DNA from: a virus
IMG/VR virus record: IMGVR_UViG_3300032333_000106
Location: 1-32,327 of that record
Length of the DNA stretch: 32,327 nucleotides
Reading direction: 5' to 3' (one strand)
Part shown: one piece after another, positions 13 through 28,882 of the stretch
Layout: each line of letters opens with the position of its first letter
Position numbering within the stretch: position 1 is the stretch's first letter
The notes under the pieces: generated by a model
Databases searched by the model: none
Told to the model about the DNA's origin: nothing
Seen by the model: the letters and a program-made list of their open reading frames with translations, nothing else
Made by a program: the position numbers and the translations under genes

Positions 13-504
13 TTAAGAGTTAGATTTTTTTATTACTGAATAAGACCATCCTGTTCTGGTTTTAATCTTATACTTTAAAGCATGCACTACAGAGTTTCTC
101 CAACAAGAAGTTTTCTTAGCTGCATCTCTAGTTCCACTGGCTATAATTTCTCGGCCTGTTTCGTGCCGACAAAGAATAGAATCGCTTTGGTCCTTACGTA
201 CATTATACCGACGCGTAGCCCATTGCAAATTCTCTACATTGTTATTAGCCTTGTCCGAATTGTCGATATGGTCTATATCACTATAGTTATTGGGATTAGG
301 AATAAATGCCATTCCTACTAAACGATGGGCTAAAACTTGTCTGCGATCTTTTAGTTGGTAACAGAGATAACCTGTTTTATTCATTTTAGATCTCATTATA
401 CGCCCATCCACTTTATCGACCACAAAGGATTTTAAACGGCCAAAGGTGGAGATTTGGTAAAGACCTTCGTAATCCTTAACATCTTTCCAGATTTCTGTTT
501 TCAT
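13..504 (-). CDS. Free-standing HNH homing-type endonuclease (NUMOD4 + HNH_3)
   Basis: 163 aa. Residues 3-28 (EIWKDVKDYEGLYQIS.FGRLKS) match the NUMOD4 DNA-binding motif. Residues about 58-96 carry the HNH_3 core: AHRLVGMAFIPNP, then DHIDN, then an Asn-rich turn and ENLQWAT. The C-terminal 50 residues (GREIIASGTRDAAKKT...TGWSYSV) look like a degenerate NUMOD1 module that would help DNA recognition. Such enzymes nick or cut phage DNA and spread with the gene; they often sit between phage transcription units. This one lies past the terminator of the virion operon and has a candidate promoter of its own. All recognisable HNH residues seem present, so it is probably active. The recognition site cannot be read from the sequence. 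Confidence 0.9.
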   Translation of the reverse strand: MKTEIWKDVKDYEGLYQISTFGRLKSFVVDKVDGRIMRSKMNKTGYLCYQLKDRRQVLAHRLVGMAFIPNPNNYSDIDHIDNSDKANNNVENLQWATRRYNVRKDQSDSILCRHETGREIIASGTRDAAKKTSCWRNSVVHALKYKIKTRTGWSYSVIKKSNS

Positions 505-2955: not shown

Positions 2956-5256
2956 TTATAAGGTTGCGTCATTTACTTTTCTCCAAGTACTTCCGTTGTA
3001 GTAAGCAAGTACTGCATCGTCTGTTGAGTACATCATCATACCTGCTACTGGAGACACAATTGCTTTAATGTTTGCTGTAGTGTCTTGCTTCAGTGTAAAT
3101 GGTGTGTAAATTTGTGCTGCTGCTGAACCATCAAATCTAAATCTTAAATTACCTTGTCCGTCTGCAAGATAAATCTGATTACTACCAGTAGGACTAAATG
3201 TGGTAGGATTAGAAAATTCATCTACTTCGTTGCCGATTATGACGTTGTAATTTCCTGTGGTAATACCTCCAGTTGCAGAAGAATAAGTACCTAATTGAAT
3301 ATTACCAGATCCGTTTGTAATTTTGTTACTTGCAGCATAACCTACTGCAGTGTTATTACTACCTGTAGTGTTAGTAGTTAATGCTGAATAACCTAAAGCA
3401 GTATTGTTGTTACCGCCGGTCATTGATCTTAATGCCTGATAACCAAGTGCAGTAAATCCAGAACCGAGAGTTCCCACGTTAGCGGAAACTGCTTGATAAC
3501 CGATAGCAACACCACCAACAATATTATTCTGTGCGGCAGTTGCTCCCAGTGCTTGGAATCCAATAGCTACTGAACCAGTTCCTCCTATTCTAGATCCTGC
3601 TTGGTGACCAACACCAACTGATTGGTTAACTAAAGTTCCTGATACCATTGATAAGTTACCAATAGCTACGTTCTGAGAACCTGTAGCATTAGTAAATAAA
3701 GCTGAATTTCCCAGTGCTACGTTATTACTTCCTGTAGTGTTACCAGTTAATGTTGAAGTACCAATAGCGTAGTTAGTATTACCAAAAGTGTTAGCTGCTA
3801 ATGCTGAGTTACCAATAGCAAAGTTTGAAGTTCCAGTAGTGTTTGCATAAGCAGCAGAAGCACCAATAGCAAAGTTACCATTACCAGTGTTTGAAAATAA
3901 GGCATTAAATCCTATTGCAAAACCATTATTTCCTAAATAAGAATTTAGTGCTTGATGTCCTATAGCAGTGTTATTTGATCCAGTAGAGTTAAGATTTAAA
4001 GCTGAATTTCCTAATACTGTGTTATTAGTACCAGAAGTAAGAGATTGACCAGCACCATTTCCAACTCCAGTATTTGTTCCTGTTGCGTTTGCTGCTAATG
4101 CGTTTGCCCCTAAGGCAGTAATAGTTCCTCCTGAGTTTGCTCTACCTGCTCTATATCCAACAATCGTACAAGTACTATAGTTATTTAAAGAACCTGCATC
4201 TACACCTATAGTTACGTTATTTGATCCTGAACTTATTCCAGATCCGGTTAACCAACCCATTAAAACGTTATTGGTTGCTGATGTTGCTTGATAAGCTGTT
4301 CCAACCCCAACTGCTGTATTATAACCACCAGTTGTTAAACCACTTAAAGCTAATTCACCAACTGCTGTATTTTCTTGTCCTGATAAACTTGCAGAAGTCA
4401 AAGACGAAGCACCAACTGCTGTGGTACGATAAACGTTATTTTGCTTACCTATTTCAACACCATTAACAGTAATGATTTGTCCGTCATAAGTAAAGTTGGC
4501 TTGTCCATTAACAACACCTGATGTTCCAGATCCTGTAATTACATAACCAGAAACGTTGTTATTAATAGTTGAACTAACACCTGAAGAACCTGAAGAACCC
4601 GAGCTTCCATCTGCGCCGTTAGTTCCGGATGTGCCGCTGCTACCTGCTGCTCCACTTTGTCCGCTACTTCCACTCGAACCCGAAGATCCAGATTCCCCGG
4701 ATGAACCTGAAGATCCATTAGCTCCGCTAGAACCTGAAGATCCAGATTCTCCGGATGAACCCGAAGATCCAGATTGCCCGCTAGAACCTGAAGATCCATT
4801 AGCTCCACTAGAACCCGAAGATCCATTAGCTCCACTAGAACCCGAAGATCCAGAACTTCCACTGTTTCCGCTAGAACCCGAAGACCCAGCACTTCCACTG
4901 TTTCCGCTAGAACCTGAAGATCCAGAGCTTCCGCTGTTTCCACTAGAACCCGAAGATCCGTTAACTCCGCTAGAACCTGAAGATCCATTAGCTCCGCTAG
5001 AACCGGAAGATCCATTAGCTCCGCTAGAACCAGATGAACCCGAAGAACCAGATGAACCCGAACTTCCAGAATTTCCTGAAGTTCCTGCTGTTCCAGATGA
5101 ACCGAAAACTACAATTTCACCTTCGTCGTTTTGTGCTTTTAGCACTCCATCTTTGGAATACAAACTCACATAACCGAATTCCGGTGGTGCTGGATCTGTG
5201 TTGTTTTGGCCGAAGATAATTTCACCTTCTCCTTGTATTTTTAATTTTCCGCTCAT
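2956..5256 (-). CDS. Large tail fibre: collagen-like stalk + YadA-head-like beta roll
   Basis: 766 aa. Residues 1-51 form a short N-terminal domain (FGYVSLYSKDGVLKAQNDEGE) shared in outline with the two fibres at 5823-7977, probably the virion-attachment part. Residues 52-228 are about 59 uninterrupted Gly-X-Y triplets, mostly GSS, with GAN, GNS, GES and GQS inserted. Residues ~250-690 carry about 23 repeats of the type NNTAIGYQAL, as in the trimeric YadA/Hia head beta roll. The C-terminus (MMMYSTDDAVLAYYNGSTWRKV) is a small tip domain. Both repeat types trimerise, so a long trimeric fibre exposed for host or polysaccharide binding is expected. Prolines are nearly absent from the collagen part. 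Confidence 0.88.
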   Translation of the reverse strand: MSGKLKIQGEGEIIFGQNNTDPAPPEFGYVSLYSKDGVLKAQNDEGEIVVFGSSGTAGTSGNSGSSGSSGSSGSSGSSGANGSSGSSGANGSSGSSGVNGSSGSSGNSGSSGSSGSSGNSGSAGSSGSSGNSGSSGSSGSSGANGSSGSSGANGSSGSSGQSGSSGSSGESGSSGSSGANGSSGSSGESGSSGSSGSSGQSGAAGSSGTSGTNGADGSSGSSGSSGVSSTINNNVSGYVITGSGTSGVVNGQANFTYDGQIITVNGVEIGKQNNVYRTTAVGASSLTSASLSGQENTAVGELALSGLTTGGYNTAVGVGTAYQATSATNNVLMGWLTGSGISSGSNNVTIGVDAGSLNNYSTCTIVGYRAGRANSGGTITALGANALAANATGTNTGVGNGAGQSLTSGTNNTVLGNSALNLNSTGSNNTAIGHQALNSYLGNNGFAIGFNALFSNTGNGNFAIGASAAYANTTGTSNFAIGNSALAANTFGNTNYAIGTSTLTGNTTGSNNVALGNSALFTNATGSQNVAIGNLSMVSGTLVNQSVGVGHQAGSRIGGTGSVAIGFQALGATAAQNNIVGGVAIGYQAVSANVGTLGSGFTALGYQALRSMTGGNNNTALGYSALTTNTTGSNNTAVGYAASNKITNGSGNIQLGTYSSATGGITTGNYNVIIGNEVDEFSNPTTFSPTGSNQIYLADGQGNLRFRFDGSAAAQIYTPFTLKQDTTANIKAIVSPVAGMMMYSTDDAVLAYYNGSTWRKVNDATL
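4573..5103 (-). repeat. Tandem repeat DNA encoding the Gly-X-Y stalk
   Basis: About 59 consecutive 9-nt units encode Gly-X-Y; a higher-order 27-nt unit (GAN/GES/GNS followed by GSS GSS) recurs. Many units are nearly identical at DNA level (GGATCTTCGGGTTCTAG variants), so the tract should expand or contract by recombination and slippage. Codon variation between GGA/GGT/GGG and TCT/AGT/TCG partly breaks the identity. Confidence 0.9.
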
Positions 5257-5265
5257 TGCTTATAA

Positions 5266-5823
5266 TTAATTTAATGTAAATTGTATTCCTTCTTCTATTA
5301 ACAAGTAACCACTTTCTGTTATAACTAATGGCTGACATGTATTAGTTGTTGGAATTTCTATTAAGTATGGTGAGTTTGTATAATCGATAGTACAATTATC
5401 TGTAACACCAGAATAATATATTATATTTTTAAAAGTCTCATTATCAGAAATGTAGACTACTTCGTTTATTTCAGGAGGCGTATAATTCGCCATTATCATT
5501 TGGCCCTCATCAATCTTTATACCTGTAGAAGGATCTAAAGAAGGATCTTCTAGGTTCCAAACTTTATAAGAAAAATTCCCAGGAGGGAAGACCATTATGA
5601 CAGAATTTAAAGGATCGTCTGCAGTTCCTTTTTGTACTACTGTGATTTCAAACTGAACAAAACGGGAATTTCTTTTAATGACTTCAGGTCTTACATAAGT
5701 CCAATGATTTGTATATAAACTCTTAAATCCAATTAAAAATTCATCCCCAAAAGTTTGTACATCCGATGTGATTGTATCGGCATAAATTACAAACTCGTTA
5801 ACTCCTACGTTTAAATTTATCAT
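5266..5823 (-). CDS. Fibre-associated virion protein, unknown
   Basis: 185 aa, beta-rich and acidic: LNVGVNEFVIYADTITSD, then FLIGFKSLYTNHW, and a C-terminal repeat-like segment ITESGYLLIEEGIQFTLN. No motif that I can name. Its ATG overlaps the stop of the upstream fibre gene (TAATG at 5821-5825), which indicates translational coupling. Sitting between two collagen-type fibre genes, it may be a fibre adaptor, chaperone or capping subunit. Proteins with an N-terminal DTITSDVQTFGD-like strand pattern occur among flavobacterial phage tail genes, but I cannot assign a family with confidence. Confidence 0.75.
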   Translation of the reverse strand: MINLNVGVNEFVIYADTITSDVQTFGDEFLIGFKSLYTNHWTYVRPEVIKRNSRFVQFEITVVQKGTADDPLNSVIMVFPPGNFSYKVWNLEDPSLDPSTGIKIDEGQMIMANYTPPEINEVVYISDNETFKNIIYYSGVTDNCTIDYTNSPYLIEIPTTNTCQPLVITESGYLLIEEGIQFTLN

Positions 5824-6917
5824 TATGTACTAAGTAATAATTTGTATGTGGTACCACCTATAGTAAACGGAAGATATCTGTTTGAAGTATAGGTTGAAGG
5901 ACCTTGTATAAAAGAACTATGAATAGGAATACAAGTACCACCTGTAAGTCCATTTCTTAACATTAAAGCTCCTGTCATTCCACCTGTCGCACCAGAAGAA
6001 CCTCCTATAAAAATATTATTAGAACCACTTGTAATTGGATCTACTAATCTACCTATAAATATATTTCCTTTTCCAGTAGTAAGACTCTGTCCAGCTTGAG
6101 TTCCTATAGCAATATTACTTCCCCCTCCTGTACTAGTATATAATGCTCTGTGTCCTATAGCAATGTTTTGAGTTGCTTCACCAGCTAATCCTACTGGTCC
6201 ATTAAATCTTAATGATTCGTTACCTATTGCTATATTATCACTGCCTGCTCCGGTTGCACTTCCATATAATGATTCGTTACCTATTGCTATATTATTAGTT
6301 GAATAACCAGTTCCTGAAAGAGTATTAAAGTTAGCAAAATTTCCTATAGCAATATTAGGGAAATTAGGATTAGATCCCGTAGGGGCTGTTTGATATCCAA
6401 TTCCTATATTTCTATTTCTATTAAGATCTCTTAGTGCTTCTTTTCCTATTGCTACATTATTAGATCCCGTTGTGTTGTCACTTAATGTTTGATCTCCTAA
6501 TGCTACATTGTTTGATCCTGTTGTATTTAAAAATAAAGCTACTCCACCTGCAGGAGCTGCAGCAGTATTACTAGTAATATTTCCTCCTCCGTGACTCCAA
6601 TAAAGACTATCTTCTCCACTAGATCCACTACTTCCACTACTACCACTTGATCCACTATTTCCGCTTGTTCCTGCTATTCCGTTAGTTCCACTAAATCTAC
6701 TAGATCCGCTTGTTCCACTATTACCACTAGATCCACTATTTCCATCAGATCCTATAAAATCTGTAATAACTCCTTGATCATCAATTAGTCTTAATTGTTT
6801 ATTGCTTCCATAATATAAAGCACCATAACCAGTTGCAGGTGTTCCATTACCTCCAATTCCAGACGTACTAAATAAAGTTTGACCTCCCGTTGTTCCTAAT
6901 TGAATAGAACCTGACAT
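5823..6917 (-). CDS. Tail fibre paralogue B: collagen-like stalk + beta-roll repeats
   Basis: 364 aa, clearly paralogous to the 349-aa fibre that precedes it in transcription. Both share an N-terminal pattern (LGTTGGQTLFSTSG...TPATGYGALYYG..KQLRL.DD.G) and a C-terminal pattern (FTIGGTTYKLLLST). Residues ~57-103 are Gly-X-Y triplets, broken by one SSRFSG where Gly is replaced by Arg. Then come about ten beta-roll repeats (NNIAIGNESL type). Probably a trimeric receptor-binding fibre. The C-terminal 60 residues differ most between the paralogues, which would fit different tips or targets. Confidence 0.87.
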   Translation of the reverse strand: MSGSIQLGTTGGQTLFSTSGIGGNGTPATGYGALYYGSNKQLRLIDDQGVITDFIGSDGNSGSSGNSGTSGSSRFSGTNGIAGTSGNSGSSGSSGSSGSSGEDSLYWSHGGGNITSNTAAAPAGGVALFLNTTGSNNVALGDQTLSDNTTGSNNVAIGKEALRDLNRNRNIGIGYQTAPTGSNPNFPNIAIGNFANFNTLSGTGYSTNNIAIGNESLYGSATGAGSDNIAIGNESLRFNGPVGLAGEATQNIAIGHRALYTSTGGGSNIAIGTQAGQSLTTGKGNIFIGRLVDPITSGSNNIFIGGSSGATGGMTGALMLRNGLTGGTCIPIHSSFIQGPSTYTSNRYLPFTIGGTTYKLLLST

Positions 6918-6927
6918 AGTTTATTTT

Positions 6928-7977
6928 TTAAGTTCCTAATAAAAGGTAATATTGTGTTCCTCCTATAGTTATAGGAAGTCTAAAAGTGTTTGTAGCAGCA
7001 CCTGATACTACGCTACCTGGATCTATCCTTAATTCTGTACTACCGTTTCCGTTTCTTATAAAAATAGTTCCGGTCATATTAGGTTCTCCTAATCCTCCTA
7101 TTGGACCTAAAAGCACGTTATTAGAACCTAAAGTAATATCTTTACCTGTTTCATAACCAATAAAAATATTATTAATACCGCCTGTTAAATTTTGACCAGC
7201 TCTAATTCCTATAGCTATATTATTAGCATTATTGCCTAAAAAAGACTGATTCCAATTAGATAATGAATCGTGGCCAATAGCTATACTGTTATTACCATTA
7301 ACATTTGAATATAAAGCTTCATCTCCTATTGCTATATTATTTACCCCTTGGTAATTACTATATAGTGCCTGGGTTCCTATTGCTATTCCATTTCCATAAT
7401 TTGTACTTTCTGGAGGTGTTGCTTGATAAGAATATAAAGCTTGAGATCCAATAGCAATAGAACCTGTTGTTCCTTGTACTATATTATAAGCTGCTCTATA
7501 ACCAATTGCTATATGATTATTGCCTAAAGTCTTTTTCTGTAAAGCACCTTCGCCTATAGCAGTATTAAAATCTCCAGTTGTATTAGATGCTAAAGCTGTT
7601 GCTGTTATAGATCCTGCAACACTATTAACTGGTGTACTAGTTCCATTTCCGTAAGTTAATCCTATACCATTAATACCAGATGATCCAGAACTGCCAGACG
7701 ATCCAGAACTGCCAGACGATCCAGAACTGCCATTAGCTCCGGACGATCCAGAACTACCAGACGATCCAGAACTACCAGACGATCCCGAACTACCCGAAGT
7801 TCCTGCGTTTTCTCCTATTATAGTAATAGCACCAGTATCATCCTTTAAACGTAATTGTTTATCAGTTCCATAATAAAGAGATCCATATCCAGTTGCAGGA
7901 GTTGCAAGTCCAGATGTGCCACTTGTAGAAAAAAGTATTTGACCTCCTGTTGCTCCTAGCTTTAGTGTTCCTGCCAT
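6928..7977 (-). CDS. Tail fibre paralogue A: collagen-like stalk + beta-roll repeats
   Basis: 349 aa. N-terminal virion-binding type domain (residues 1-55: KLGATGGQILFSTSG, ATGYGSLYYGTDKQLRLKDD), Gly-X-Y stalk about residues 60-107 (GSS, GAN, GIN), then about nine NNIAIGDEAL-type repeats, ending in LPITIGGTQYYLLLGT. It is the first of three fibre genes in transcription order, and it starts after a terminator-like hairpin and a conserved upstream motif, so the fibre block may have its own transcription start. The triplication suggests gene duplication followed by divergence of the tips. Confidence 0.87.
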   Translation of the reverse strand: MAGTLKLGATGGQILFSTSGTSGLATPATGYGSLYYGTDKQLRLKDDTGAITIIGENAGTSGSSGSSGSSGSSGSSGSSGANGSSGSSGSSGSSGSSGSSGINGIGLTYGNGTSTPVNSVAGSITATALASNTTGDFNTAIGEGALQKKTLGNNHIAIGYRAAYNIVQGTTGSIAIGSQALYSYQATPPESTNYGNGIAIGTQALYSNYQGVNNIAIGDEALYSNVNGNNSIAIGHDSLSNWNQSFLGNNANNIAIGIRAGQNLTGGINNIFIGYETGKDITLGSNNVLLGPIGGLGEPNMTGTIFIRNGNGSTELRIDPGSVVSGAATNTFRLPITIGGTQYYLLLGT

Positions 7978-23871: not shown

Positions 23872-24099
23872 ATGGCAAAACAAATTTCACAATTCAATCC
23901 AGGTGACGCAATCGCTTACATGGCAGATGGCGGTTGGAATCACGTAGTAGGTATTATCTTAGGTAAAGACGAACATGGCGTTAGCGTGTGGGTCACTTCT
24001 TTAACCTTTGGTGCAGAAGACGCAGATGGTGTATTTTTACCTAACGACTTTCCTGTTACCAAATGGCAAAGTTCTATTCCTGAAATTTTAAAAGACTAA
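23872..24099 (+). CDS. Hypothetical protein, 75 aa, small beta-barrel like
   Basis: 75 aa: FNPGDAIAYMADGGWNHVVG, IILGKDEHGVSVWVTSLTFG, then AEDADGVFLPNDFPVTKW. The alternation of short strands with a Gly-Asp turn recalls a small SH3/KOW-like barrel, but I cannot place it in a family. It is the first gene after the exact TATATTTG promoter box, with an A/T-rich leader and no Shine-Dalgarno. It is separated from the next gene by 2 nt. Confidence 0.75.
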   Translation: MAKQISQFNPGDAIAYMADGGWNHVVGIILGKDEHGVSVWVTSLTFGAEDADGVFLPNDFPVTKWQSSIPEILKD

Positions 24100-24101
24100 T
24101 C

Positions 24102-24320
24102 ATGACTACAAGAGAAAAAAACATGGCTAACCTAAAAATAGGTACCTCAGGCACAGGCAAAAAACTATTCATTAAATTAGGTGACAAGCTTTATCCGCTG
24201 GCTAAAGATTGGAAACGCACATTCGCTTTAAATATCGACAAAGAAGAATGGGACCCAACTTGGTTACTAAGCACTCGCAATCTAATGGCTTATCAACAAG
24301 ACATTTTAAAAAAGAAATAA
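24102..24320 (+). CDS. Hypothetical protein, 72 aa
   Basis: 72 aa from ATG 24102. A second in-frame ATG at 24123 (MANLKIGTSGTGKKLFIKLG) follows an A-rich stretch and resembles the ATGGC starts of neighbours, so a 65-aa product is equally likely. Basic; a likely beta hairpin GKKLFIKLGDKLYPL, then DKEEWDPTWLLSTRNLMAYQ. No motif recognised. It is co-transcribed with its neighbours. Confidence 0.65.
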   Translation: MTTREKNMANLKIGTSGTGKKLFIKLGDKLYPLAKDWKRTFALNIDKEEWDPTWLLSTRNLMAYQQDILKKK

Positions 24321-24322
24321 CT

Positions 24323-24580
24323 ATGAGAAAAGCATTTTGGAAATTATTCTTTAATTTGTTAACTGACGAACAGTTAATGAGACTACACGTTTGGTCTAAC
24401 TATGTTAATGACAAAGCAGATATGCAAGATCTGCTTAGCGAAATTAAAAAAGTACATCCCCAAATCTTCGACGAGTGTTTAGCAATATTCGAAGAAAGCT
24501 GTCGAAAAATAGAAGCGCATCATGGTTGGGATCGCATTTGGTGGCATCGTAAATTTATCACTCCTGTAATTTTAAAATAA
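24323..24580 (+). CDS. Hypothetical protein, 85 aa
   Basis: Start chosen at ATG 24323 (MRKAFWKLFFNLLTDEQLMR), 2 nt after the previous stop; the frame is open further upstream but overlaps the previous gene in another frame. Helical, with DEQLMRLHVWSNYVNDKADM, DLLSEIKKVHPQIFDECLAIF and a His/Trp-rich end (HHGWDRIWWHRKF). Possible small DNA- or protein-binding factor; no family recognised. Confidence 0.68.
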   Translation: MRKAFWKLFFNLLTDEQLMRLHVWSNYVNDKADMQDLLSEIKKVHPQIFDECLAIFEESCRKIEAHHGWDRIWWHRKFITPVILK

Positions 24581-24581
24581 T

Positions 24582-24647
24582 ATGAGCACTTACTACGAAA
24601 TAGTTCGCACCACTCCAGGTGGCACAGTTAAAAAACCTAAAAAATAA
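24582..24647 (+). CDS. Very small ORF, 21 aa
   Basis: ATG at 24582, TAA at 24645-24647: MSTYYEIVRTTPGGTVKKPKK. It starts 1 nt after the previous stop and ends 4 nt before the ATPase start, filling the only gap in a tightly packed run. The end (GGTVKKPKK) is like that of tiny phage peptides. It may only be a leader peptide that couples translation of the ATPase. Confidence 0.4.
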   Translation: MSTYYEIVRTTPGGTVKKPKK

Positions 24648-24651
24648 TTAT

Positions 24652-25512
24652 ATGTCGGCACCAAAAGTATTTACAAAAGAAATGTGTGACTTTTATATTA
24701 AAGGTCAACAACAACGTACATCTTTAAATTTAATCGGACACGAAATATTAGGATTAACCGGTAAAGAAAGATATCCTCACATCTACATTTATTCCCAACC
24801 AGGATTAGGTAAAAGCTGGACTGTTAATGATGCACTTGCCCGAAGTCCATTTAAAGGAATTATAATTAAGCATACAAGCACATTTAAATTCTTTTTAAAT
24901 TTAGCAGTGCTTAACTACCAAAGACATTTAGATAAAAGCACAGATCCGCTTTTATTCCACATTGAAGATTGTAACGATCTATTTAAAAATGTGGAATCTT
25001 TAAACGATATGAAATCTATTTTAGGTGATGACCGTTGTTACCATTACCAGAAGTTTTCTAATAACTGGTTAAAACGTATGACTGATTTTGAAAAGCGTGC
25101 TATTGAATTCCATAAGAATTTATTTCCGGACGAAATTGGTATTAAGGTTCCTACTGATAATATGGTTTTCATTATTACTTCTAACGATAGATTACCAGAT
25201 AAAAATACAGAAATCAAATCAAATTTAGATCAGCACAAATTAGCTATCCGTTCTCGTATTCAAAACGTTTATGACTTTGATGTCTCTGATAGAATTCTTT
25301 GGGGTAGTATTGTCGACACAGCATTAAATACTAAATTAATTGATGCAGCAGTTCCTAAATCTATTATTGAAGAAGCTGCTTTATTTATGTGGGAACATTG
25401 GGACGTATTAAAAGAAACGTCTAATCGTACTATTGATAATATGTGCGAAGATTATAGAAAATCTCCTAAGAGTTATAAATCAGTTTGGGAAGTAAAATAT
25501 TTGTCATGCTAG
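24652..25512 (+). CDS. AAA+ family ATPase
   Basis: 286 aa from the ATG at 24652 (MSAPKVFTKEMCDFYIKG), chosen because upstream in-frame sequence overlaps the 21-aa ORF. Walker A SQPGLGKS at residues 48-55, Walker B LLFHIED at 100-106, sensor-1 VFIITSND around 172-179, and arginine-finger candidates in AIRSRI (200-203). This organisation fits a small AAA+ motor, as in helicase loaders or phage DNA-handling ATPases. The exact substrate is unknown. It is the most informative enzyme in the plus cassette, and suggests a DNA-replication or genome-handling role for it. The stop overlaps the next start by 7 nt. Confidence 0.8.
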   Translation: MSAPKVFTKEMCDFYIKGQQQRTSLNLIGHEILGLTGKERYPHIYIYSQPGLGKSWTVNDALARSPFKGIIIKHTSTFKFFLNLAVLNYQRHLDKSTDPLLFHIEDCNDLFKNVESLNDMKSILGDDRCYHYQKFSNNWLKRMTDFEKRAIEFHKNLFPDEIGIKVPTDNMVFIITSNDRLPDKNTEIKSNLDQHKLAIRSRIQNVYDFDVSDRILWGSIVDTALNTKLIDAAVPKSIIEEAALFMWEHWDVLKETSNRTIDNMCEDYRKSPKSYKSVWEVKYLSC

Positions 25513-25964
25513 ATCCAAAATATCAAAACTTAGTTAATCAAGTAGAAACTAACTGGGGTAATCTTAGAGATCACGAAATAACTTGGTTAGGTGAATCTAA
25601 ACAGATTTTTCTTTATCATAAGGACGGGACATTTTATAAAGAATTTCAGTCTATTAATAAATTAAGTTCCCAATTTAAAGGCACTTATAATTTTAAATGT
25701 CATAAGACGTACAAAGGTTATATCGTATTAGATCAGTATGTTGAAAAATTATCTCAAGAAAAAATAGACAGTGTGTTGTATCGTAAAACCGGTAAGTCTA
25801 TTATTAGATATGATGCTAATCATAATAAAATAGACGAATGGATTAATGCAAATCAAGCAAGTCAAAAATTAGGAATTTCCCCAAGATCAATAAGTAGTTA
25901 TATGAAACGTCCAGATCTTGCTTTAAAAACAAAAGGTTACTATTTTAAATACTCAGAAGAATAA
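25506..25964 (+). CDS. Double NUMOD1-like DNA-binding protein, copy 1
   Basis: 152 aa from ATG 25506. Two modules are visible: residues ~30-75 (KQIFLYHKDGTFYKEFQSIN...YKGYIV) and ~98-148 (IIRYDANHNKIDEWINANQA, SQKLGISPRSISSYMKRP, TKGYYFKY). Both follow the NUMOD1 pattern (strand pair, then helix-turn-helix, then G-aromatic end) found at the C-terminus of homing endonucleases. No HNH or GIY-YIG catalytic motif is present. The N-terminus MLDPKYQ.LV.QVETNW.NL is almost identical to that of the next gene, showing a tandem duplication. Likely DNA-binding; regulatory or remnant homing role is open. Confidence 0.75.
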   Translation: MLDPKYQNLVNQVETNWGNLRDHEITWLGESKQIFLYHKDGTFYKEFQSINKLSSQFKGTYNFKCHKTYKGYIVLDQYVEKLSQEKIDSVLYRKTGKSIIRYDANHNKIDEWINANQASQKLGISPRSISSYMKRPDLALKTKGYYFKYSEE

Positions 25965-26428
25965 TGTTAGATCCAAAATATCAAAAGTTAGTAGAACAAG
26001 TAGAGACTAATTGGAGTAATTTAAGTAAAAGGGATTTAGCAATAATTGCTAGTTGTAAACCAGTTTATCTTTATAATCAAGATGGAACATTTTTTAAGGA
26101 ATTTGAATCAACAACTTTAGCTACTAAATATCTTTTCGGAGAAGTAAGACCAATTATTAAAACTGCCGTCTCGTTACGCGGTTATATTATTTCTTTTGAA
26201 AAAAAAGAAAAATTAACTGAAGAAGAATTGAAAAAAGCTATCCAACGTTCTAGACGTTTAAGAAAAGTAGATCAATTAGATTTAATGGGTAACTATATCA
26301 GAACTTTTAATAACATAAGTGAAGCAATGGCTTTTATTGGAGAAACCAATAATGCAGGTATTTCAAGGGCAATTGCAAATAGTTCTAAAAAATGTAGGGG
26401 ATTTAAATGGAGATATCATGAAGAATAA
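25964..26428 (+). CDS. Double NUMOD1-like DNA-binding protein, copy 2
   Basis: 154 aa, starting on the last base of the previous stop (TAATG). Same layout as its neighbour: MLDPKYQKLVEQVETNWSNL, first module KPVYLYNQDGTFFKEFESTT ... LRGYIISF, basic linker (KKAIQRSRRLRKVDQ), second module LDLMGNYIRTFNNISEAMAF ... CRGFKWRYHEE. DNA identity is high over the first ~60 nt and falls afterwards. No nuclease domain. The second module's helix (IGETNNAGISRAIANSSKK) differs from copy 1, so the two may recognise different DNA sequences. Confidence 0.75.
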   Translation: MLDPKYQKLVEQVETNWSNLSKRDLAIIASCKPVYLYNQDGTFFKEFESTTLATKYLFGEVRPIIKTAVSLRGYIISFEKKEKLTEEELKKAIQRSRRLRKVDQLDLMGNYIRTFNNISEAMAFIGETNNAGISRAIANSSKKCRGFKWRYHEE

Positions 26429-26687
26429 CATACCACATAATCTAGACTGGGAACGACTGTGTTTAAAGCCCGTAGCTGAACGCGATTTAAAAAAGATGCT
26501 AACATCTATGTGTGTCCGTTTCGCAGCCGTTACGGATACAGGATTAACGTTTATGACTGGTACTAGAATAAAGAAGATAGCTGGCCGTCAGGCCAGGCGC
26601 GTTAGAAACGGATATTGGGAGTGTTACAAAGCCGACGAAGGCTGGGTGGCTCTACCAAAGAATGGACATTATTGGTTACATCCATAA
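26418..26687 (+). CDS. Hypothetical protein, 89 aa
   Basis: Start at ATG 26418 (MKNNIPHNLDWERLCLKP), overlapping the previous stop by 11 nt. Basic, with a beta-rich middle (MCVRFAAVTDTGLTFMTGTR) and an Arg-rich turn (KKIAGRQARRVRNGYWECYK) ending in WVALPKNGHYWLHP. Possibly nucleic-acid binding because of the basic patch. No family recognised. It is followed closely by the SprT-like gene. Confidence 0.68.
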   Translation: MKNNIPHNLDWERLCLKPVAERDLKKMLTSMCVRFAAVTDTGLTFMTGTRIKKIAGRQARRVRNGYWECYKADEGWVALPKNGHYWLHP

Positions 26688-26697
26688 ATGAAAATAA

Positions 26698-27228
26698 ATG
26701 GCAGGATTAATAGAATCAGAAAAGTTAGCTAAGAAGCTAATGCGCAAGCATGGACTACTAAAACAAGGCTGGTCATTTAAATGGGATCATGCTAAACGTC
26801 GTTATGGATGTTGCAATTATACTGAAATGACTATTCAGTTAAGCAAGTACTTAACCCGCACAGTGACAATAGCAGAAGTAGAAGACACAATCTTACATGA
26901 AATAGCCCACGCATTAGTTGGACCTGGTTATGGTCACGGCTGGGAATGGAAAGAAATGTGCATGCAGATAGGAGCAGTTCCTGAACGTTGTAAACAAGCA
27001 GAAGAAAATGGAGTAAAAGTAAAACAACTAAAACCTAATTATAGTGACGGAAGTTACCGCAAAAGAGCTAACAGCAGATATAGGAATTATTACGAGGAAC
27101 CAGAATACTATCCAACATATAAAAAAGAACCAGAACCTTATTTGTATAGAGGAACCCAGCCAGTTGTTAAGTTATCTAAAAATCCAATAGTTAAAACATG
27201 GCAAATTATTAAAGCCATATTTTCATAA
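26698..27228 (+). CDS. SprT-like zinc metalloprotease
   Basis: 176 aa. The zinc-binding helix LHEIAHALVG gives HExxH at His67-Glu68-His71, and the third ligand is probably His80 in GYGHGWEWKEMC. An N-terminal segment (WSFKWDHAKRRYGCCNYTEMTIQLSKYL) matches the usual SprT fold entry. In other systems SprT/Spartan proteins cleave proteins crosslinked or bound to DNA. This one has a Tyr/Pro/Glu-rich tail (YYEEPEYYPTYKKEPEPYLY) instead of a zinc ribbon. As the last gene in the plus cassette it may remove host proteins from DNA during phage growth; that is inference. Confidence 0.82.
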   Translation: MAGLIESEKLAKKLMRKHGLLKQGWSFKWDHAKRRYGCCNYTEMTIQLSKYLTRTVTIAEVEDTILHEIAHALVGPGYGHGWEWKEMCMQIGAVPERCKQAEENGVKVKQLKPNYSDGSYRKRANSRYRNYYEEPEYYPTYKKEPEPYLYRGTQPVVKLSKNPIVKTWQIIKAIFS

Positions 27229-27232
27229 CTCA

Positions 27233-27275
27233 TTGTCCAGCGTAAAGTTGCCGGGATGTTACTAGATCTGGACAA
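27233..27275. other. Inverted repeat in the cassette trailer
   Basis: Perfect 8-bp arms TTGTCCAG (27233-27240) and CTGGACAA (27268-27275) separated by 27 nt, lying between the SprT-like gene and the terminator hairpin. Together they form two consecutive stem-loops at the 3' end of the plus transcript. Confidence 0.6.
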
Positions 27276-27277
27276 CG

Positions 27278-27305
27278 GAACCACTCTTCGGAGTGGTTCT
27301 TTTTT
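27278..27305 (+). terminator. Rho-independent terminator of the plus-strand cassette
   Basis: Perfect 9-bp stem GAACCACTC/GAGTGGTTC with a TTCG tetraloop, followed by six T at 27300-27305. It ends the rightward cassette exactly at the terL stop codon (27304-27306). There is no T-run for the opposite direction, so leftward terL transcripts may continue as antisense RNA into the cassette. Confidence 0.92.
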
Positions 27306-28557
27306 AGAAATCTAACAACGCTCCACGCTTGCCCGAACCAATAAATGTGTAACCAGAACCACTTCCTATTTGTAACTTGGTACCAACTGCGTACCGCAAA
27401 GCATCCATAATATGATTGTAATTGTCTATAGGAGCGTCAGTCTTTTCACGGTAATAGTAGTTGTCGTACTCAAGACGCAGATTAAAACTCATAGCATCAG
27501 CATGTACTTGGTACGAATTGATCGTGTCAATGCCGGCGCGTATAGAATCCGGACCCTTTACGCAAGGTCTTATATTACGCCAACCCAATCGTCTCAAGGT
27601 TTCTATAGATCTAGGATCAGCAGAATCAGCCACAATAACAGAATGCTGTGGGATCTTGGCCTTAGTCATAGCGCGATGCAAGTCATCAATGGTCAGACCA
27701 GTTTGGTAAAGCAACTCGCGCACCCATAATTTGTTACCCCTTTTCTTAACTTCTACTAGTGCTGTAGGATCGTGGGCAAATCCAAAGTCTAGACCTAAGA
27801 TTGTTTCCGCTTCTGCATCTGGTTCGAAATAAGTCCAATCCCAATTCTTAAACACCTGTCCTTCTCCAACATCTTTCCACTTACCTAAGATCTGGTGCTC
27901 ATAGTAACTTGGATCTATTACCCGCATTCTCTCCCATTCTGCGATCTTACTCTCATCTAGATGTTCTGCATTGTCGTGATAGGTTGTGTGCAAGAAGCAA
28001 TGATCTATACTCCACTTAGGATGTGGACTGCCATCTGGTAGATAGAACCTTTGAAAGATCCAATGGTTCTTACTGGTTGGGTTAAAGCAAAGAAAGATCC
28101 TACGCTCAGCGCCCTTGGTACGGAACGAGTCAATTAGCTTGATGTACTCATCTTCACTAGGCATCTCTGTTGCTTCATCTATGAGTAGGTGGGTCACATT
28201 GGAAAGACCTTTACCTTTAGCCGACATCGAGTTCTCTGTCATCTTCATAGCGTGGGTAATGATAAGGTTGCCATTGGCTGGATTCTCGATCTCGTCTCCT
28301 GTGATCCTGATCCTATCCTTAAGTCCCCACTTGTCTATCAGATCTAGGATGTCACGGTAAATGGAGGAGGAGATACTCTTTTGGGTGTATCGGGAAACAA
28401 CGCCTCTGAACCTGTCTTCGCCAAACAGTTTAACCAGAAAGTAAGCGGCGATTTGGGTGGATTTCCCCGATGCTCTGCCACCACTGATAACGAAGTAGTT
28501 CTTGTCTTTCTCGTAGAAGATGGGATGGTAAGCATCTAAGAATTTAAATTCGGCCAT
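27304..28557 (-). CDS. terL: Terminase large subunit (PBSX/phage terminase_3 type)
   Basis: 417 aa, full length. The ATPase domain has Walker A GGRASGKST (26-34), Walker B THLLIDEATEM with D127/E128, and a coupling motif FLCFNPTS (155-162). The nuclease domain has three acidic residues in ILGLDFGFAHDP (D257), VIVADSADP (D311) and NHIMDALRY (D385). It pumps and cuts phage DNA at the portal. The region upstream contains a 325-nt GC-rich spacer, and terS lies beyond it on the same strand. All motifs are intact. Confidence 0.95.
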   Translation of the reverse strand: MAEFKFLDAYHPIFYEKDKNYFVISGGRASGKSTQIAAYFLVKLFGEDRFRGVVSRYTQKSISSSIYRDILDLIDKWGLKDRIRITGDEIENPANGNLIITHAMKMTENSMSAKGKGLSNVTHLLIDEATEMPSEDEYIKLIDSFRTKGAERRIFLCFNPTSKNHWIFQRFYLPDGSPHPKWSIDHCFLHTTYHDNAEHLDESKIAEWERMRVIDPSYYEHQILGKWKDVGEGQVFKNWDWTYFEPDAEAETILGLDFGFAHDPTALVEVKKRGNKLWVRELLYQTGLTIDDLHRAMTKAKIPQHSVIVADSADPRSIETLRRLGWRNIRPCVKGPDSIRAGIDTINSYQVHADAMSFNLRLEYDNYYYREKTDAPIDNYNHIMDALRYAVGTKLQIGSGSGYTFIGSGKRGALLDF

Positions 28558-28882
28558 AAGCTATTTATGTCTTGGATTATCGGAGGAGTTGCCAGGAGAC
28601 CAACCCTATAAGGTTAGAAAAAAAATATAACCTGAGGAATTCTTTTGTCTCACCTTCCCGGGAGGTTCACGCGCAAAACCTGGTTTTCCTGGAGTAGGGG
28701 AGTCCGGGACGGGGGTCGGGGCGCCCTCACCGAATGAAAGAATGTTAACAAGTTCATTTTTTTATCTGGGTGGTTCCCCCATCCCCGGGGATCTCATTTT
28801 TTATTCTCGCGGGGATACCCATCCCCCCTTTGATTGGCTGGGTTATCTAAGAAATCTTTGGCAAATACCACGATGAAAACCG
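28558..28882. other. GC-rich spacer between terS and terL, with palindromes and tiny ORFs
   Basis: 325 nt without a convincing gene and much richer in G/C than the rest. It contains the perfect palindrome ATCCCCGGGGAT (28781-28792), a hairpin GGGGAT-ACCC-ATCCCC (28811-28826), a hairpin AGGTTA/TAACCT (28611-28633) and one GGCGCCCTCACC motif (28719-28731). Two minus-strand ORFs are coupled by ATGA: 28822-28754 (22 aa, MGIPARIKNEIPGDGG...) and 28757-28650 (35 aa, MNLLTFFHSVRAPRPP...). They could be real or chance. A packaging-start (pac/cos) region is possible here. Confidence 0.55.

Follow-up and report, generated by a model that had tools for sequence, protein, structure and literature searches.

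The window, i.e. the whole stretch of DNA analysed here, is a virus record of 32,327 bases (IMGVR_UViG_3300032333_000106) from a tailed phage. The locus under study (Table 1) carries the gene of an AAA+ ATPase, 297 residues long if translated from the GTG at 24619 or 286 from the ATG at 24652, followed by two genes called here N1 (152 residues) and N2 (154 residues). The N1 ATG lies within the 3' end of the ATPase gene, with an overlap of 7 nucleotides (nt), and N2 starts inside the N1 stop codon (TAATG overlap). Each protein begins with a short segment common to both, hereafter the tag, and continues with a body of DNA-binding modules of the kind found in homing endonucleases; as argued below, N1 and N2 are probably DNA-targeting adaptors of the ATPase. 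The first-pass annotation had placed both genes correctly, and its description of them as tandem pairs of NUMOD1 modules with an almost identical N-terminal segment and no catalytic motif was borne out.

Table 1. Features of the ATPase-adaptor cassette and of other parts of the window
Feature	Position	Strand	Basis
AAA+ ATPase, PHROG 1250 / T4 NrdC.10 type, putative motor	24619-25512	+	alignment with phrog_1250 relatives
Adaptor N1: tag and two NUMOD1 modules, without nuclease domain	25506-25964	+	NUMOD1 25.7 bits, two stretches
N1 tag, residues 1-30, MLDPKYQNLVNQVETNW..., putative ATPase-docking segment	25506-25595	+	member of the tag profile; limit approximate
N1 NUMOD1 module 1, about residues 31-75	25596-25730	+	second NUMOD1 stretch and alignment with N2; limits approximate
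N1 NUMOD1 module 2, about residues 97-151	25794-25958	+	best NUMOD1 stretch, 102-132; limits approximate
Adaptor N2: tag and two NUMOD1 modules, without nuclease domain	25964-26428	+	NUMOD1 27.2 bits, two stretches; fold
N2 tag, residues 1-30, MLDPKYQKLVEQVETNW...	25964-26053	+	helices 4-15 and 22-30 in the model; limit approximate
N2 NUMOD1 module 1, about residues 32-77	26057-26194	+	model: strands 34-37 and 42-47, helix 50-58, strand 74-77; limits approximate
N2 NUMOD1 module 2, about residues 97-153	26252-26422	+	NUMOD1 stretch 101-121; VIA-align range 97-153
Free-standing HNH enzyme	13-504	-	NUMOD4 48.7 bits, HNH_3 32.6 bits
Three Gly-Ser-Ser repeat proteins, then NVAIG/NTAVG-type repeats	2956-7977	-	translations of the open reading frames
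SprT-like metalloprotease, adjoining the cassette	26698-27228	+	PF10263, E 5e-14

The whole-protein scores of N1 and N2 are both above the Pfam cut-off for NUMOD1 (PF07453, 22.8 bits); the single best stretches in the DNA search, at 18.7 and 15.7 bits, are under it. At the N-terminus 17 of the first 24 residues are identical between the two proteins (62 nt at 84% identity), and BLASTP aligns residues 1-76 with an E value of 4e-21. No nuclease domain was detected in either protein by the Pfam scan, even up to E 10; this covers the GIY-YIG, HNH and LAGLIDADG homing nucleases, no search with a dedicated model having been aimed at the EDxHD type. The 88-position profile phrog_20162, named 'HNH endonuclease', gives weak matches (E 0.015 and 0.016) to residues 63-152 of N1 and 112-154 of N2. 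As these cover the second NUMOD module, the name was taken to be inherited from nuclease-bearing relatives. Nor did tblastn find any trace of a frameshifted nuclease at the cassette: with a GIY-YIG domain and the HNH enzyme of the window as queries against positions 24000-28700, the best E value was 0.26.

The AlphaFold model of N2 (mean predicted local distance difference test, pLDDT, 75; predicted template modelling score, pTM, 0.45) shows an N-terminal helix pair followed by two strand-helix modules. Residues 83-154 resemble the regions with which I-HmuI (Z 7.2) and I-TevI (Z 5.5) bind DNA, as well as a stand-alone DNA-binding protein of Paulinella (8b6e; Z 8.4, root-mean-square deviation 1.5 over 52 residues). 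Structure prediction thus supports the assignment for the second module; the VIA-align rows span residues 83-154 only, and the first module was barely probed. Foldseek with the same model gave nothing at E ≤ 0.001, the best match being I-HmuI with E 0.042. Some crAss-like phage proteins have a GIY-YIG domain followed by two NUMOD1-like modules (28% identity over N2 residues 7-154, E 1e-3). Two such homing enzymes, whose C-terminal half resembles N2, are found at 2165-2983 of locus L003 and 2069-2887 of L004; both carry in-frame TAG codons, presumably read as Gln. Among viral contigs no relative was retrieved with N1, with N2 or with the two aligned. In the phage collection no record was found with N1 and 72 with N2, the best 20 of the 72 being mostly annotated as homing or HNH enzymes.

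The ATPase belongs to a family of 'unknown function', phrog_1250, which is matched by 29 of 30 aligned ATPases at E ≤ 0.001. The exception is the window copy, which is 25-38% identical to the phrog_1250-matching members of the alignment. PMC1524935 notes T4 nrdC.10 as an open reading frame (ORF) that matches AAA marginally and is retained in three of six T4-like phages. Eight positions are invariant in 32 out of 32 ATPases, four distant sequences being left out: G51, G53 and K54 (Walker A), D106 (Walker B), T176 and N178 (sensor 1), R202 and W250. A Pfam DNA-binding domain was not detected in the three ATPases scanned. Weak NCBIfam matches among the 30 are to Hda (4), DnaA (3), Orc1/Cdc6 (3) and DnaI (1), with a best E value of 0.0007, and also to FtsH, ClpV, RuvB and other families; a clamp-loader PHROG is matched by 10 of the 30, and in the PDB it is classical AAA proteins that rank first (VCP-like, E 3e-5). 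The predicted structure was of low quality (pLDDT 53), a fold search with it gave no credible match, and it was not used. With an alignment of three ATPases as query, only known contigs and no bacterial genome were recovered, and in the phage collection the window ATPase matches at E ≤ 0.01 only the Burkholderia jumbo phages FLC6 and FLC8.

Loci containing relatives of the ATPase were collected by way of the terminase, which led to six loci (L008 repeats L011), and then by way of the ATPase itself. In L011 two NUMOD proteins come after the ATPase, the shorter at 22.4 bits for NUMOD1 (just under the cut-off) and the longer at 23.0 bits, with an N-terminal segment common to both; in L009 it is followed by a single NUMOD1 protein (44.9 bits) with three modules by eye. 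The L012 contig (10.8 kb) has neither the ATPase, nor the NUMOD genes, nor orf86, and in L020 orf86 is kept, with a 169-residue protein without Pfam match in place of ATPase and adaptors. Since L009 and L011 carry both partners and L012 and L020 neither, the ATPase gene and the NUMOD genes are gained or lost jointly at this locus. L010 gives no match to ATPase or adaptors and has virion genes beside the terminase, and L007 stops about 460 nt past the terminase and is uninformative on the cassette.

For a wider survey, an alignment of four ATPases led to 36 viral loci and two more in Lutibacter and Algoriphagus genomes; dropping three duplicates (L034, L047, L056) and adding the window, FLC6 and FLC8 left 38 non-redundant loci. 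A tag profile was trained on the first 34 residues of five NUMOD proteins (N1, N2, that of L009 and the two of L011) and run for five rounds at E ≤ 0.01 against the 2,604 ORFs of these loci. It matched 31 ORFs, every one of them flanking the ATPase gene, 27 downstream within 500 nt and four directly upstream (L037-L040), and none elsewhere in the 38 loci or on the other strand. N1 and N2, both training members, score E 6e-10 and 4e-9 in the last round. Already in the first round, built on the five training proteins, the profile reached zinc-finger/helix-turn-helix (HTH) proteins of L043, L039, L042 and L037 (E 7e-6 to 0.003), the best non-adjacent ORF being at E 0.019, which indicates that bodies unrelated to one another can carry the tag at their front.

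Altogether, adjacent tagged genes were found in 26 of the 38 loci, 20 by the iterated profile (3 of them training loci) and six with a diverged tag by score against controls. In these six (L050, L051, L053, L055, L057 and L060) the tag is outscored by none, or by a single one, of 648 control N-termini, from which the adaptors' own had been removed; 527 others got a score. The spacing is tight as well: the ATPase stop and the adaptor start are at most 25 nt apart in 28 of 32 loci. L062 and L065 are cut by the contig end. The two loci from bacterial genomes, L070 (a Lutibacter metagenome-assembled genome) and L071 (Algoriphagus faecimaris), have the ATPase and a tagged HTH-like adaptor between DNA methylase and site-specific recombinase/integrase genes, so that they probably sit on integrated elements.

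What follows the tag was determined with Pfam (E ≤ 0.01) for 45 adjacent proteins from 32 loci, of whose 27 matched families 25 were listed. The main ones are I-HmuI_NUMOD-like (17 proteins), NUMOD1 (12), HTH_SB (6), NUMOD3 (5) and I-TevI_DNA-bd (3); the body types are NUMOD1 arrays, NUMOD3 with an I-TevI-type module, and zinc finger with HTH. Single weak matches to the BglII (E 0.005) and Cas4 (E 0.002) families were taken as chance. Neither GIY-YIG, HNH nor LAGLIDADG occurs among the families listed. Because the proteins beside the ATPase in the 31 other loci scanned also show no homing nuclease among these families, a nuclease was not lost here by frameshift, an eventuality that the first-pass annotation had raised. 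The annotation had seen in N1 and N2 homing-enzyme DNA-binding parts domesticated as a duplicated regulator or decoy. The origin and the duplication with a common start are upheld; the regulator or decoy is not supported in that form, as the partner ATPase had been overlooked, the shared segment is, in the ATPase loci examined, a tag found before several different bodies, and NUMOD1 is only one of the bodies used behind it. Arrays of about four NUMOD1 modules per protein, counted by eye, were seen in L048 (1758-2540) and L064 (4828-5655), and would be natural repeat-type DNA readers.

Two genes and a further 45, selected from 142 listed neighbours, were scanned for what else lies beside the module; of these 47, HNH endonuclease PHROGs match at most five, so nucleases lie nearby in some loci only, and no constant third gene was seen beside the module.

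Loci with two adaptors allow tag and body to be compared within one genome. The tags of the L058 pair are identical at 17 of 24 positions and the best body match is 5 of 13; for the L061 pair the figures are 18 of 23 and 8 of 25, and for L044 13 of 23 and 9 of 30. As judged from these alignments, the bodies of L058 and L061 are without convincing similarity while their tags agree. Over 27 loci (L042, L048, L054, L064, FLC8 and the cut and distant loci being left out), the distances between ATPases correlate with those between tags at 0.55, a value that none of 1,000 permutations reached (Mantel test), as against 0.20 for ATPase and body and 0.20 for tag and body (both p 0.002). The partial correlations are 0.53 for ATPase-tag and 0.11 for ATPase-body. 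The divergence of the ATPase is tracked more closely by the tag than by the body.

A changing body is seen in FLC6 and FLC8. There the gene after the ATPase, gp128, scores 25.2 bits with NUMOD3 (cut-off 20.4) and 26.9 bits with the I-TevI-type DNA-binding module (cut-off 27), is without nuclease domain in Pfam, and is matched by PHROG 314, a 'homing endonuclease', at profile positions 279-393 of 574. The ATPases of the two phages are identical (283 of 283 residues) and the flanking helicase nearly so (506 of 507); gp128 is identical at only 57 of 163 positions (35%). The flanks are mostly near-identical, and divergence begins and ends around gp128. Over the 62 genes of a 50-kb stretch, the median identity is 98.7% and 48 genes reach at least 95%; no gene but gp128 falls below 60% in a full-length alignment (the cut genes gp105 and gp168 were left out and gp151 aligned only partly). 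In SURPRISE13, a relative of FLC6 and FLC8 with no match to the ATPase, an unrelated 329-residue protein replaces both ATPase and gp128.

The observations to be explained were all made directly: the adjacency of the two kinds of genes, the conservation of the tag across unrelated bodies, its co-divergence with the ATPase, the lack of a homing nuclease in the Pfam families listed, the joint presence or absence of the partners and the hypervariable body in FLC6 and FLC8. The explanation that we hold to be probable is that N1 and N2 serve as adaptors targeting the upstream AAA+ ATPase to DNA, to which ATPase they would be joined by a docking tag. Their bodies would be DNA-binding modules derived from homing endonucleases, two NUMOD1 in each case, in which the nuclease would have been replaced by the short helical N-terminal tag. 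The tag would dock on the ATPase while the body would bind a chosen DNA sequence, and the ATPase, for which Pfam detected no DNA-binding domain in the three copies scanned, would thereby be loaded at the adaptor's DNA site. A single ATPase per genome could be served by several adaptors with different bodies, and a body could be swapped with no change in the ATPase. The ensuing reaction is a guess: it might be ATP-dependent loading or remodelling at phage sites, origin licensing being the first candidate. Confidence is high as to the association of the ATPase gene with those of tagged binders, moderate as to the docking of the tag on the ATPase, and low as to any particular biological purpose. 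The broader picture, a two-part targeting machine where a constant AAA+ motor would be re-aimed by whole-body swaps between interchangeable tag-docked readers, as in FLC6 versus FLC8, seems to us to have an even chance of being right.

Several points weigh against this explanation. Tags of one locus are not always more alike than those of different loci: the tag scores of 13 within-locus pairs are reached by a fraction of the 848 between-locus scores that ranges from 0.007 to 0.70. The ATPase-body correlation, if weak, is significant, and since body distances are near saturation its value is lowered by that alone. Several adaptors are matched over their NUMOD parts by PHROGs named 'HNH' or 'homing endonuclease' (E 2e-8 in L009, 2e-7 for one of the L011 proteins, 1e-16 for gp128 of FLC6); in our reading it is the DNA-binding part that is matched. 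The scores of the six diverged tags are reached by 0, 0, 1, 2, 3 and 5 of 2,000 shuffles, and in L054, L063, FLC6 and FLC8 the tag is undetectable (37 to 192 of the 648 controls score as high), so that only position and body type link those four to the module; all 10 proteins with a diverged or undetected tag had been chosen by eye as the next gene before scoring. The NUMOD1 arrays after the ATPases of L048 and L064 lack the tag. Four distant ATPases (L066-L069) have unrelated neighbours, and no tag was found (best E 0.16) within the 3- to 3.5-kb flanks of 12 loci of more distant homologues from named phages (L021-L028, L030-L033), T4-like and jumbo phages included; the ATPase family is thus wider than the module. 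Finally, every ORF searched belongs to a locus retrieved with the ATPase or to the window, FLC6 or FLC8. The statement that the tag lies only beside the ATPase holds within these, tagged proteins at a distance from the ATPase would have escaped detection, and the lack of any viral-contig relative in the direct searches with N1 and N2 illustrates the short reach of such searches.

Origin licensing, taken further, gives a special case of the adaptor explanation in which the cassette is a split replication initiator: the adaptors would bind the phage origin, and an ATPase of the DnaA/Orc/DnaC kind would melt it or load the helicase. This is a possibility that we retain tentatively. It would agree with the initiator-clade proteins that lead the weak NCBIfam matches, with the clamp-loader PHROG, with the putative DnaB helicase gene that the FLC6 and FLC8 locus abuts, and with the ORF lists of the window, where, not every ORF having been scanned, no other replication ATPase was noticed. 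Swappable initiators are moreover a feature of lambdoid phages. L012, L020 and SURPRISE13, however, must replicate regardless of the cassette that is missing at their locus, and L011 has a separate replication-initiation-like gene (5199-5603; phrog_4707, E 9e-15). The repeat searches did not yield iterons either: in the window, L009 and L011 the repeats found are either traces of gene duplication or short families that we attribute to chance. A 10-mer scan of the 38 loci, with 20 shuffles each, flagged L041, L044, L045 and L066 (0 of 20) and L068 and FLC8 (1 of 20). The repeats of L041, L044 and L045 were rejected as iterons, for they resemble repeated promoters of the Bacteroidetes type, of which we take the TAnnTTTG box to be the consensus; they are consistent with Bacteroidota hosts. 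The L041 sites (522, 2018, 2301, 2548 and 2824) are near-identical with a box of this type, one lying before the ATPase and four before small genes.

It is slightly more doubtful that the cassette is a device for competition, with adaptors recognising the DNA of a rival phage, a plasmid or the host, which the ATPase would block, strip or exclude. On that account, the bodies would change fast because their targets do. The replacement of gp128 amid otherwise near-identical FLC6 and FLC8 genes fits such an arms race, or else a DNA site carried inside the gene. The many different bodies speak for it too, as does the divergence of the ATPases of the window's relatives (36-38% identity to the window copy), larger than that of their neighbours (orf143 50-66%, orf97 57-79%, orf86 76-84%, orf72 90%, orf75 97%). 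So does the optional character of the cassette, T4 nrdC.10 itself having been found in only three of six T4-like phages (PMC1524935). Against it, the scarcity of HNH PHROGs among the neighbours scanned goes with the lack of a constant effector. PADLOC, run on 30 ATPases, returned two models for one ATPase each (E 4e-4 and 5e-4) and none for that of the window; with no good match, a known anti-phage defence system was rejected for the ATPases scanned. Fast divergence is, besides, common to replication and immunity modules.

That N1 and N2 simply repress transcription, or act as decoys, and merely happen to lie in the ATPase operon is improbable: I-TevI, being an autorepressor, offers a precedent for repression by NUMOD-type proteins (PMC3943268), and the fold alone would suit a DNA-binding regulator, but it would remain unexplained why one and the same tag fronts unrelated bodies beside an ATPase and tracks its divergence. 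Decaying remnants of homing endonucleases, which the GIY-YIG enzymes with two NUMOD1-like modules of crAss-like phages and the HNH/NUMOD4 enzyme of the window itself might suggest, are very improbable given the open frames and mostly tight spacing kept in 31 other loci, most of them with the tag and all without a homing nuclease among the families listed.

For the adaptor explanation, the closest working analogue is Tn7, with its TnsC and modular selectors. Selectors of the TniQ/TnsD type dock on TnsC in that system. The likeness lies in an AAA+ regulator with modular target selectors, which Tn7 has co-opted from various sources (PMC10293859); in the module described here the selectors come from homing endonucleases and what they share is a tag some 25 residues long. 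TniQ is absent from the families listed for the 45 adaptors, and transposase from those listed (25 of 65) for the 47 neighbours, L070 and L071 having site-specific recombinases. Homing endonucleases (I-HmuI, I-TevI and the crAss-like enzymes) share with the adaptors DNA-binding modules of the NUMOD1, NUMOD3, I-TevI and I-HmuI types, and in PMC3943268 and PMC1564403 NUMODs appear as modules attached to a nuclease domain; the adaptors differ in having no Pfam nuclease domain, a tag in its place and an adjoining AAA+ ATPase gene. The ATPases of the module belong to the PHROG 1250 / NrdC.10 family, of which the tagged module is a subset. They share the AAA+ class, with weak profile matches, with DnaA, Orc1-Cdc6 and DnaC-DnaI, whereas DNA recognition would here be on a separate chain. 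The Paulinella protein (sCTP-23166), a stand-alone DNA-binding protein with the fold of the second N2 module, is eukaryotic and 52 residues long, and we know of no ATPase partner for it.

The rest of the window calls for a few remarks. The HNH/NUMOD4 enzyme is 63% identical to the product of 4168-4689 in L011 and is a possible local source of homing-enzyme parts. The gene order of L011 (3281-6142) suggests that positions 1 and 32327 of the record adjoin and that it is a nearly complete genome in permuted form; the gap between its ends would then hold a replication-initiation-like gene and another HNH gene. Among the matches listed for the terminase are Nonlabens, Riemerella, Enterococcus and Bacteroides phages (33-37% identity). 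In L012 the terminase large subunit is split between two overlapping frames (432-1683), by a frameshift or an assembly error. The SprT-like gene matched nothing at E ≤ 0.01 in the six terminase-related loci. The three Gly-Ser-Ser repeat proteins are probably structural.

To conclude, ATPase and adaptors form a recurrent two-component module, in which reading the DNA would fall to N1 and N2. It is apparently undescribed: no such module was met among the papers listed by searches on NUMODs, modular DNA binding, nrdC.10 and domesticated homing endonucleases, the poor coverage of subscription journals making this weak evidence of novelty, and a search for 'phrog_1250' turned up only phrog_12508. 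Two 'hypothetical' genes thereby become the readable half of a recurrent module, and an AAA+ family of unknown function, with homologues from 32-kb phages to T4-like and jumbo phages, gains a partner. The module also shows where the DNA-binding parts of homing enzymes can end up once freed of their nuclease. The tag makes the docking interaction directly testable; if docking is true, the adaptors would be ready-made pieces for directing a motor to DNA. With the arrays of about four NUMOD1 modules in L048 and L064, the two-part machine would be a naturally evolving, modular and nuclease-free targeting system, to which we found no counterpart in the literature searched.

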